64,000 bases of DNA from Falsibacillus albus (GTDB lineage Bacteria > Bacillota > Bacilli > Bacillales > DSM-25281), in the NCBI RefSeq assembly GCF_003668575.1, contig NZ_RCVZ01000003.1:256430-320429 (forward strand), in the 5' to 3' direction. A program made the position numbers and the translations under genes. The notes under the pieces were generated by a model. The model ran no database searches and was not told where the DNA came from. It worked only from the letters and a program-made list of their open reading frames with translations. Numbering within the stretch: position 1 is the first letter of the stretch; every line of letters starts with the position of its first letter. Shown here piece by piece: positions 30,681-32,896 of this stretch.

Positions 30681-31004
30681 TTAGCAGCAAGAGATTCTTT
30701 TTCCTTTTTGGTCTAGATCTTCTATTAAAAAATGCAGGTCTGGTAAATCCTTTAGAATGGTTTGCAGGTACGCATATTGGTCAGCATGCTCATTCAATGA
30801 ATAAAAAATCCACTGACCCTTCCGCTTTTCCTTCACAACCCCTGCATCCTTCAGCTTCTTCATATGCTGGCTGATGGCCGGCTGACTCATTTGAAAAATT
30901 TCAACAAACTCGCATACACAGCATTCTGAATATGAAAGCAAACGAACAATTGTCAACCGCGTTTTGTCTCCCAGCAGCTTCAACAACTGGGCATTCTTTT
31001 CCAT
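30681..31004 (-). CDS. arsR: ArsR-family arsenite-responsive repressor of arsRBC
   Basis: A 107-residue winged-helix protein. The metalloid-binding cysteines lie at the start of the recognition helix region, ECCVCEF (Cys28, Cys29, Cys31), with a further CC pair at the C-terminus. The DNA-reading helix is MSQPAISQHMKKLKDAGVV. Binding of As(III)/Sb(III) should release it from the operator at 31054-31079, which exactly fills the spacer of its own promoter. First gene of the operon. Confidence 0.93.
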   Translation of the reverse strand: MEKNAQLLKLLGDKTRLTIVRLLSYSECCVCEFVEIFQMSQPAISQHMKKLKDAGVVKEKRKGQWIFYSLNEHADQYAYLQTILKDLPDLHFLIEDLDQKGKRISCC

Positions 31005-31099: not shown

Positions 31100-31115
31100 A
31101 TCAATTTATTTTGAT
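31100..31115. promoter_or_regulatory. ATCAA-N6-TTGAT operator, copy 1
   Basis: ATCAA-TTTATT-TTGAT, between the divergent ars promoters and 8 bases upstream of the arsR2 -35. Confidence 0.7.
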
Positions 31116-31122
31116 TTAGAAG

Positions 31123-31151
31123 TTGCATATTTCATTTTTTGGGAATATAAT
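31123..31151 (+). promoter_or_regulatory. Promoter of the second arsR unit
   Basis: TTGCAT (31123-31128), 17-base spacer, TATAAT (31146-31151), flanked on both sides by ATCAA-N6-TTGAT operators. Confidence 0.75.
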
Positions 31152-31158
31152 ACAATAT

Positions 31159-31174
31159 ATCAAATAATTTTGAT
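31159..31174. promoter_or_regulatory. ATCAA-N6-TTGAT operator, copy 2
   Basis: ATCAA-ATAATT-TTGAT, covering the expected transcription start of arsR2, 15 bases before the ATG. Confidence 0.78.
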
Positions 31175-31189
31175 GAAAGGAAACTCGCT

Positions 31190-31516
31190 ATGGACCAACA
31201 AATCCCCTTGCTCGATATCACTAAGCAGACTGCATTTGAACGCTACGAACAAAAATTTAAAGCATTGGCCGACCAGAAAAGGCTTCACATTTTAAACTTA
31301 CTGTGCAGCCAAAAAGAGACATGCGTTTGCGACTTGAGTGAAATGATCGATATGCCGCAATCAAAGCTCTCCTATCATTTGAAAATACTGTTGGATGCCA
31401 ACCTGATTTCGAAAGAAACGAAAGGCACGTGGAGCTATTATCAAATCAATACAGAAGAAATTAATCATCTTTTATCGCCAGAGCTATGCTGTCTGTTCCG
31501 GCCTTCCAGCTGCTAG
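31190..31516 (+). CDS. arsR: Second ArsR-family metalloid sensor
   Basis: A 108-residue winged-helix repressor, distinct from the one at 30681. It has ETCVCDL (Cys45, Cys47), the canonical ArsR metalloid site, plus CC at 100-101 and a final Cys108. The recognition helix is MPQSKLSYHLKILLDANLI; the SKLSYHL type differs from SQPAISQHM of the first ArsR, so the two should read different operators, as the DNA suggests. It heads a unit of two Cys-rich micro-ORFs and a permease, each micro-ORF preceded by a copy of the same operator. Confidence 0.92.
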   Translation: MDQQIPLLDITKQTAFERYEQKFKALADQKRLHILNLLCSQKETCVCDLSEMIDMPQSKLSYHLKILLDANLISKETKGTWSYYQINTEEINHLLSPELCCLFRPSSC

Positions 31517-31523
31517 AAGGCCG
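31499..31523 (+). other. Hairpin over the arsR2 stop codon
   Basis: CGGCCTTC / GAAGGCCG stem. The eight-T run lies 11 bases downstream, so it is not a standard terminator; attenuation or mRNA protection are possible. Confidence 0.5.
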
Positions 31524-31550
31524 AAGCATGATTCTTTTTTTAAGTATTAA

Positions 31551-31566
31551 ATCAAAAAAAATTGAT
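31551..31566. promoter_or_regulatory. ATCAA-N6-TTGAT operator, copy 3
   Basis: ATCAA-AAAAAA-TTGAT, 9 bases before the AGGAGG of the first micro-ORF. It shares TAAATCAAAAAAAATTGATT with copy 4. Confidence 0.75.
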
Positions 31567-31588
31567 TAATCAAAGGAGGTGATTAGAA

Positions 31589-31708
31589 ATGGGATTATGG
31601 ATAAATTGGTTTAGCAAAGAAGCAGAAAAAGATTGCTGCGACATTAAAATAATTGAAGTTCCAGAGGAAGAAGAAGCTTGTTGTGAAGAGTGCTGCCAAT
31701 CATTTTGA
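31589..31708 (+). CDS. 39-residue cysteine-rich micro-protein
   Basis: Too short for usual gene finders but well supported. An AAAGGAGGTGAT ribosome site ends 6 bases before the ATG, and the ORF fills the space between two identical operators. The peptide begins with a hydrophobic-aromatic stretch (MGLWINWFSK). It then has three vicinal cysteine pairs: KDCCD, EACCEE and CCQSF-end, separated by acidic residues. Six cysteines in 39 residues suggest soft-metal or As(III)/Sb(III) binding, as a chaperone to the permease or a buffer. I do not recognise a named family. Function is inference from composition and context. Confidence 0.75.
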   Translation: MGLWINWFSKEAEKDCCDIKIIEVPEEEEACCEECCQSF

Positions 31709-31715
31709 ACTATAA

Positions 31716-31731
31716 ATCAAAAAAAATTGAT
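31716..31731. promoter_or_regulatory. ATCAA-N6-TTGAT operator, copy 4
   Basis: ATCAA-AAAAAA-TTGAT, directly after the first micro-ORF and 29 bases before the second. Confidence 0.75.
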
Positions 31732-31759
31732 TAATTAAAATCAGAGAGGAAGAACGAAT

Positions 31760-31930
31760 ATGTATATGGATTACCATTTAATTGCGAAAATGAAGATACA
31801 GGAAACAGAAGAAAGAGCCAAACATTCATGGAAGTATTACGAGGAGCAAATCAACCATCGTCCAGCTGCTGAAAAAGCCCTCTGCGAAACAGAAGCTTCA
31901 ATCATTCAACCTGCTTGCTGCCAAGTATGA
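31760..31930 (+). CDS. 56-residue small protein with C-terminal CCxV
   Basis: ATG 31760 is preceded by AGAGAGGAAG. The peptide MYMDYHLIAKMKIQETEER... is a charged, probably helical segment, then ALCETEASIIQ and a C-terminal PACCQV. Three cysteines, with the CC pair at the extreme C-terminus, recall the C-terminal CC of both ArsR proteins nearby. It ends 10 bases before the permease start, so it is almost certainly co-translated with it. Not a family I recognise; a metalloid-handling partner of the permease is plausible. Confidence 0.7.
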   Translation: MYMDYHLIAKMKIQETEERAKHSWKYYEEQINHRPAAEKALCETEASIIQPACCQV

Positions 31931-31940
31931 GGAAAATGCC

Positions 31941-32804
31941 ATGATTGAATTTTTGAGAAATTTTTTAAACATTGCAGCCGAACTAACCATCCTTTTCGTA
32001 GGCATTTCCTTCATTATTTCACTTCTTCAGGCCTACATCCCTTATCGAAAAATCGAAAAACGGCTATCGAATGGAAACAAGGTTTTGAATGGATTGGCGG
32101 CAATCGTATTTGCCTTTATCACACCATTTTGTTCATGCTCGACCATACCCGTTGTCGTCAATATGCTAAAAAATAAGGTCCCTTTTTCCATTGTCATGAT
32201 CTTTCTATTTGCTTCCCCGGTTTTGGATCCAACCATCCTGACGATCATGACCGTGATGATGGGCTGGAAGGTCACCATCTTCTATACGATTACGACCAGT
32301 GTTTTATCTATGGTGATTGGATTCGTTTTGGACCTTCTTGGGTTTGAACGATACATCAAACAAGTCATCATGACTGGATACCAAGAACGGCAAAGTGCAT
32401 TCTCTTGGAAAATAGCTTTCCAAGAAACATGGGGACTCATGAAAAGCGTCTATCCATATTTAATCATCGGGGCCGGAATCGGTGCTGTCATTCACGGCTT
32501 AGTCCCGGCTGAATTCATCGGGAAATGGTTTGGCGACGATGCCTGGTGGCTCATACCGGCTGCTGCCATTGTCGGAATTCCGCTATATATCCGATTATCC
32601 AGCATGATTCCCATCTCCCAAATATTAGTTTTGAAAGGAATGGCGCTAGGTCCGGTCATGGCAATGATGATCAGCTCTGCCGGCGCAAGTTTGCCTGAAC
32701 TCGTGCTTCTCAAATCCATTTTTAAAAAGCAGCTGATCGCAGTGTTTGTATTATCGGTTGTCTGCATGTCTACGATTTCAGGATTTCTATTTTACCTGGT
32801 TTAG
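31941..32804 (+). CDS. ArsP / YraQ-family (DUF318) permease
   Basis: A 287-residue membrane protein with about eight hydrophobic segments. The family signature FITPFCSCSTIPVVVNML, with the CSC pair in the membrane, and the FASPVLDPTIL block are clear. A second-half repeat (GIPLYIRLSSMIPISQIL) matches the same fold. Members include ArsP, which exports trivalent organoarsenicals, and SO_0444-type metal exporters. It is the last gene after arsR2 and two Cys-rich micro-ORFs. A strong terminator follows. Substrate is inferred as a trivalent (organo)arsenical or a soft metal. Confidence 0.85.
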   Translation: MIEFLRNFLNIAAELTILFVGISFIISLLQAYIPYRKIEKRLSNGNKVLNGLAAIVFAFITPFCSCSTIPVVVNMLKNKVPFSIVMIFLFASPVLDPTILTIMTVMMGWKVTIFYTITTSVLSMVIGFVLDLLGFERYIKQVIMTGYQERQSAFSWKIAFQETWGLMKSVYPYLIIGAGIGAVIHGLVPAEFIGKWFGDDAWWLIPAAAIVGIPLYIRLSSMIPISQILVLKGMALGPVMAMMISSAGASLPELVLLKSIFKKQLIAVFVLSVVCMSTISGFLFYLV

Positions 32805-32864: not shown

Positions 32865-32896
32865 GGGAACGAGCACTCCCGGCTCGTTCCCTTTTT
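32865..32896 (+). terminator. Terminator of the arsR2-permease unit
   Basis: GGGAACGAGC / GCTCGTTCCC stem, seven-base loop, five T. Confidence 0.92.

Follow-up and report, generated by a model that had tools for sequence, protein, structure and literature searches.

ArsP exporters of organic arsenicals are described as widespread in a passage of PMC4435449, and no account of how substrate reaches them was found in the literature excerpts available. A locus of Falsibacillus albus bears on this question: within a stretch of 64,000 nucleotides (the window), an arsP gene is preceded by two short open reading frames encoding paired cysteines. Control by ArsR and ArsP itself are known already; new are two small protein families, here called pep1 and pep2, and a recurring partner of ArsP. 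What do these proteins do beside the permease? From sequence comparison, pep1 and pep2 are probably ArsR-induced thiol carriers or buffers serving ArsP, within an ArsR-controlled soft-metalloid efflux unit.

Layout and control of the ars unit

The unit runs in the order promoter, arsR2, pep1 (39 aa), pep2 (56 aa) and arsP, with the following features.

31100..31115, no strand: operator 1, ATCAA-N6-TTGAT (exact match; relatives also have upstream operator pairs, spaced by about 59 bp)
31123..31151, plus strand: probable promoter TTGCAT-17-TATAAT, flanked by operators 1 and 2 (sequence reading; a generic promoter scan did not report it)
31159..31174, no strand: operator 2, over the expected transcription start (exact match)
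31190..31516, plus strand: arsR2, ArsR/SmtB repressor of 108 aa with Cys 39, 45, 47, 100, 101 and 108 (ORF and Pfam)
31551..31566, no strand: operator 3, internal, just 5′ of the pep1 ribosome site (exact match; internal operators recur in relatives)
31589..31708, plus strand: pep1, 39-residue microprotein with three CC pairs (CCDIKIIEV...CC..CC) (ORF, relatives, selection)
31716..31731, no strand: operator 4, internal, 5′ of pep2 (exact match)
31760..31930, plus strand: pep2, 56-residue microprotein, CC near its end, terminus PACCQV (ORF, relatives, selection)
31941..32804, plus strand: arsP, PF03773 permease of 287 aa with a TPFCSCST motif (ORF, Pfam and alignment)
32865..32891, plus strand: likely intrinsic terminator of the unit (terminator scan)
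30681..31004, minus strand: arsR1 of the neighbouring divergent arsRBC operon (context; ORF and Pfam)

The first-pass annotation had proposed a second ars unit of arsR2, pep1, pep2 and arsP here, and all four ORFs lie where it placed them; the three CC pairs of pep1, the PACCQV end of pep2 and the FCSCS of the permease are all present in the translations. It had also credited both micro-ORFs with strong ribosome sites; the site of pep1 is very strong (AAAGGAGGTGAT), and that of pep2 is weaker. Under simple rules of 6 letters (pep1) or 5 letters (pep2), ribosome sites precede 35 of 45 pep1 and 24 of 26 pep2 ORFs. The window's layout is atypical in that pep1 lies between arsR and pep2; relatives usually have pep1 after arsP.

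An exact scan of the 64 kb window agrees with the earlier claim of four copies of one operator, at 31100, 31159, 31551 and 31716. The identical stretch shared by operators 3 and 4 was likewise found, although it spans 23 bases (31548-31570 and 31713-31735) rather than the 20 first given. Across the whole 4.49 Mb genome there are 31 exact sites, compared with 2 for a reversed-letter control, and with the other 27 sites as background the Poisson chance of four within 632 bp is about 9e-12. When up to 2 mismatches were permitted, the window held no excess of the pattern (61 copies against 79 expected); it is the exact sites alone that stand out. The same sites cluster in relatives: in 64 scored loci, 243 exact copies (1.81 per kb) lie between 1 kb before arsP and 250 bp after it, compared with 3 elsewhere (0.007 per kb). 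Of these 243, 110 precede arsR, another 110 fall in the stretch from the arsR stop to the following gene, 12 follow arsP and 11 are inside genes; 27 internal pairs are exactly 22 bp apart. Operators 1 and 2, 59 bp apart, flank the TTGCAT-17-TATAAT promoter, and a promoter of this type lies between 42 of the 56 upstream operator pairs of arsP loci, against 2.6% in letter shuffles.

ArsR2 is an ArsR/SmtB metalloregulator, matching Pfam HTH_5 (7.7e-17; 61.3 bits, cut-off 22) and NCBIfam NF033788 (96, cut-off 55). Its CVC at 45-47 recalls Cys32/34 of R773 ArsR, and its CC at 100-101 recalls Cys95/96 of AfArsR and Cys101/102 of SpArsR; in the passages of PMC13236881 and PMC11868830 that describe these proteins, published As(III) and methylarsenite sites use cysteines at positions like those of ArsR2. 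In contrast to the three published repressors, ArsR2 and its relatives combine both kinds of motif in one protein, and CVC and ELCC occur together in 47 of 53 ArsRs of arsP loci (window included). ArsR2 would bind the operators flanking and following its own promoter, and would release them once its cysteines capture an inducer. Because the internal operators of the window end close to ribosome sites and leave little room for a promoter, we infer that they act as a roadblock, which would silence the permease but allow arsR expression to continue. Such internal operators suggest an unusual repression layout. Operators lie between the genes of the unit in the window (31551-31731) and in relatives, where they are often paired 22 bp apart; they have no evident promoter.

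Regulators of ArsP units belong to three families, each with a CC pair: ArsR, MarR (NKNCC; L003, L015, L017, L134, L184-L189, L191) and PadR-like (GCCTPT; L198, L199, L203, L205), where one MarR and one PadR were assigned by Pfam and the others by eye.

The permease matches Pfam ArsP_1 (PF03773) at 5.3e-49, with 167.4 bits against a gathering score of 32.3, and its C64-S-C66 is invariant across 29 aligned permeases, conforming to the C(S/T)C motif of the family. The ArsP_1 family and a C(S/T)C motif preceded by TPF are shared with the ArsP operons of Campylobacter jejuni, whose motif and gene cluster are described in part of PMC4435449. Unlike the window unit, known ArsP permease operons have no microprotein partner that we found in the literature. 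Below cut-off, the permease also matches NCBIfam models whose names refer to Cu/Zn efflux and to SaoE, and the substrate is therefore possibly not arsenic. A PDB sequence search returned no ArsP relative, and a Foldseek comparison of an AlphaFold model of ArsP with the PDB gave no match at E up to 0.001. Sections of a 2025 review (PMC12607644) report arsP as undetected in ars operons of Bacillus species and state organic-arsenical permeases in Bacillus as an open question; a close relative of this ArsP is present in 130 of 394 sampled genomes of the order.

Selection on pep1 and pep2, and comparison with known families

In-frame conservation had been named earlier as the test on which the micro-ORFs would stand or fall. 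In ten close loci (L056-L064 and L067), dN/dS is 0.119 for pep1 (0.091 without L059) and 0.153 for pep2, compared with 0.106 for arsR and 0.037 for arsP in the same loci, while the pep1 and pep2 alignments shifted by one or two bases give 1.19-1.44. Both ORFs are under purifying selection in frame, and the proposal that they are real survives this test. Chance ORFs are ruled out by dN/dS and by the distribution across loci, and both peptides are presumably translated. The remark that they are too short for usual annotation applies to the window, where both are unannotated, but three relatives are annotated as hypothetical proteins.

Neither window peptide matches a Pfam or NCBIfam family, and only scattered weak matches were obtained when 30 pep1 and 19 pep2 rows were compared with both collections. 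PHROGs gave no match for the window peptides or for one fused N-terminus, and the AlphaFold model of pep1 was not usable (pLDDT 66). Literature searches, judged largely from titles and listings and with subscription papers poorly covered, returned no description of these peptides. The weak family matches and the lack of a literature description thus define an ArsP unit with two undescribed micro-proteins, in keeping with the earlier suggestion of an undescribed small system.

The metallochaperone ArsD shares vicinal Cys pairs with pep1 and pep2 and, according to a passage of PMC6514093, delivers As(III) to ArsA. However, ArsD has its own Pfam family (PF06953), which matched none of the 30 pep1 and 19 pep2 rows, and its partner is ArsA rather than ArsP. 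NF047871 (VcpD, an ArsD-related vicinal cysteine protein) matched 2 of 30 pep1 rows weakly, with a best E of 0.071. The SAO organometal system comprises a permease (SaoE), SaoC and SaoT; ArsP matches the SaoE model with a score under the cut-off. A table in PMC13188914 gives SaoC as a Cys-Cys-COOH protein, named for its terminal Cys-Cys; its model has 148 positions, compared with 39 and 56 residues for pep1 and pep2. NF040734 (SaoC) exceeded its cut-off in none of 12 genomes, and the weak matches listed were never at the place of pep1 or pep2.

Distribution of the two families

The pep1 family has the core CC-x-[ILV]-x-I-x-E. Using the permease as query, 67 named arsP loci were fetched, whose titles mostly name Bacillales (two name other genera, perhaps mislabelled). 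When their 572,369 bases were searched on both strands for CC-x-[ILVF]-x-[IF]-x-E among ORFs 22-109 aa long, 62 matches were found in 62 separate loci, all pep1-like by eye; with a variant in L105, pep1 is present in 63 of 67 loci, and by the pattern search it is absent from L066, L068, L081 and L101. It lies just 3′ of arsP in 45 by a position rule and likewise in L117 (a cut contig), divergent and upstream of arsR in 15, and about 1.2 kb downstream in L059.

The linkage was also approached from pep1 itself. In 61 genomes a pep1 search gave 20 loci beyond the window's own, 8 with ArsP within 1.5 kb; the other 12 are weak or unclear, except L013. Order-wide, 105 pep1 matches were obtained at E 1e-3 (397 genomes) and 130 permeases at E 1e-60 (394 genomes). 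An ArsP permease lies within 2.5 kb of 92 of the 105, with G396 scored as distant even though its stretch contains ArsP, and 99 of the 130 permeases have a listed pep1 of any E within 2.5 kb, leaving 31 without. ArsP is within 1.5 kb in 29 of the best 30 pep1 loci (window included; the exception is L051). Stretch inspection, which took in 89 of the 105 strong matches, covered 60 further stretches (59 new, and the L051 place again): ArsP lies within 4 kb in 50, in 3 of which the pep1 pattern itself was not seen, and is absent at that distance from 10.

Beyond the order, nine further pep1 matches were found in 299 genomes of the phylum. Eight adjoin a permease ORF, and the ninth (L204) adjoins a methyltransferase, which was taken for ArsM. 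A wider pep1 model matched in 31 of 398 phylum genomes, a sample that overlaps the first. A similar permease is nearby in 25 of 30 phylum-search loci with the window included, or 23 of 28 once the window and L215 are set aside; no permease passed the threshold at L210, L213, L218, L220 and L235, although L213 retains a C-terminal piece. At L204 (1435-2926), the pep1-like segment is part of a 205 aa ORF without Pfam match, beside the ArsM-like methyltransferase.

Certain arsP loci from other classes encode the pep1 segment as part of a fusion with thioredoxin-fold proteins of the MTH895/ArsE and DUF2703 types. L197 joins it to Thioredoxin_3 (2.3e-27; NCBIfam MTH895/ArsE, 1.1e-28), L199 and L205 join it to DUF2703 (7.3e-38), and five more genomes of the same family as the fusion carriers look alike by eye. 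Among the proteins tested with Pfam and NCBIfam, only the fused ones carry a thioredoxin fold domain; window pep1 and pep2 have none. No permease was recognisable in the stretches examined around the fused genes of L210 and L220.

Compared with pep1, pep2 is rarer and less conserved. By rule it is present in 26 of 64 scored loci (window included); L077, L097, L117 and L121 were left unscored, as the permease motif was not found there, and L097 shows pep2 by eye. The gap between pep2 and arsP is 10-56 bp in the 26 loci. Since pep2 is hard to align (mean column identity 28%), the pep2 family is defined with less certainty than the pep1 family.

Eight of the ten ArsP-less pep1 stretches come from one genus. 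A pep2-like ORF lies directly 5′ of pep1 in seven of these eight (none by rule in L141), and four of the pairs sit between a GntP/SDR gene pair and a gene of 805-813 aa, leuS by eye. Two exact operators accompany the pair in six of seven cases, and the seventh has one exact copy and one a base short; in all seven they surround a TTGCA/TATAAT-type promoter. In this genus arsP is elsewhere in seven of eight genomes (one copy is stop-interrupted), next to a MarR gene at each of the seven loci inspected, and the eighth genome retains a 48-residue piece only.

In a locus of the window's own genus (L134, 2895-3098), a pep2-like peptide ends PDCCDFKIEKVCCEF, and pep2 can thus bear a pep1-like core.

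Function of pep1 and pep2

Across 45 pep1 copies, the mean charge is +2.7 before the CC core and -3.2 from the core on. Amphipathicity is moderate only, with about half of the copies beating most of their shuffles. Together with the cysteines of ArsR2, this pattern suggests thiol carriage for ArsP as the best reading. Upon induction, the unit would make the permease together with both micro-proteins. In pep1 relatives, an N-terminus that is on average positive and partly amphipathic may lie against the membrane or on the permease, followed by the CC-x-I-x-I-x-E core and an acidic tail, often with more CC pairs; in pep2, the N-terminus looks helix-like by eye and a CC lies close to the end. With their paired thiols, the two peptides would retain the metalloid close to the membrane, and would pass it to the CSC site of ArsP or keep it away from other proteins. 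Since its segment is part of a thioredoxin-fold protein in some relatives of other classes, pep1 looks like a stripped-down form of the thiol partner of the permease. The ArsP linkage, the thioredoxin-fold fusions and the ars genes described below fit metalloid thiol chemistry, and the operators of the permease unit also precede the unlinked pep2-pep1 pair.

Several observations stand against thiol carriage. The 31 permeases and four named loci mentioned above have no pep1 nearby, 34 of the 67 loci show no other ars gene in the stretch examined, and the fused genes of L210 and L220 have no recognisable permease. Moreover, the N-terminus of window pep1 is neither strongly amphipathic nor positive (charge -1 before the core, -7 from the core on; N-terminal moment 0.33).

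As for the load, a trivalent arsenical, perhaps methylated or otherwise organic, is most likely. Arsenic is favoured because 33 of the 67 named loci hold other ars genes, where ArsB and ArsC were recognised by their resemblance to the window copies, ArsD was identified with Pfam for one copy, and ArsA and ArsN are what we take those genes to be. Copper, zinc or organometals are possible but less likely loads.

The main rivals to thiol carriage are a pump-independent buffer and a permease subunit. In the first, pep1 and pep2 are stand-alone thiol buffers, scavengers resembling mini-metallothioneins, induced beside the pump and not its carriers. The many CC pairs (three in 17 of the 45 pep1 copies), the unlinked pep2-pep1 pair of one genus and the 10 of 60 fetched stretches lacking ArsP within 4 kb are all consistent with buffering, but 15 of the 45 copies have one CC pair only, few for a scavenger, the linkage of pep1 to ArsP is very strong, and the thioredoxin-fold fusions suggest exchange rather than storage. 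We consider such a buffer unlikely. A role as regulatory or structural permease subunits, which would act in assembly, gating or inhibition and use the Cys pairs as a redox or metal switch, is rather improbable. Membrane proteins are often the targets of short proteins, and the tight linkage and near-constant neighbourhood of ArsP agree with a subunit; however, no transmembrane helix is apparent by eye, and thiol chemistry is a better fit to the fusions. Control of arsP by ribosome stalling at Cys codons, as in mycobacterial polycysteine uORFs, was rejected as the main reading and is very improbable: while pep2 (in the window also pep1) lies between arsR and arsP, with CC near the pep2 stop and a short gap to arsP, that gap is only 10-56 bp, no plus-strand terminator-like site was found from 31190 to 32804, residues other than Cys are under selection, most pep1 copies lie downstream of arsP or diverge from it, and the separate pep2-pep1 pair, under the same operators with arsP elsewhere, argues against a cysteine-attenuation leader.

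Within thiol carriage for ArsP, a bolder proposal is offered tentatively and with some doubt: pep1 might be a minimal version of a so far unrecognised thiol-relay domain, a peptide of 30-60 residues that would capture the arsenical on its CC core, dock at the membrane and load ArsP-type exporters throughout the phylum, with pep2 as a second carrier. If true, few known metalloid chaperones would be as small. A recurring Cys-pair partner of 30-60 residues, missed by Pfam and NCBIfam, offers a testable answer to the question of substrate supply to ArsP.

In L157, L156 and L022, a CCxIxIxEV unit (CCxVKIEEV-like) is repeated two to four times in one short protein. Neither pep1 nor a consensus-like peptide gave a match in plasmid tblastn searches, for which a low-complexity filter is perhaps responsible. 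On plasmid pBO1 (L123, 11151-12639), pep1 and a gene annotated as ArsI/CadI run divergently to arsR-pep2; arsBCDA and trxB adjoin, and no arsP is annotated in the 26 kb seen.
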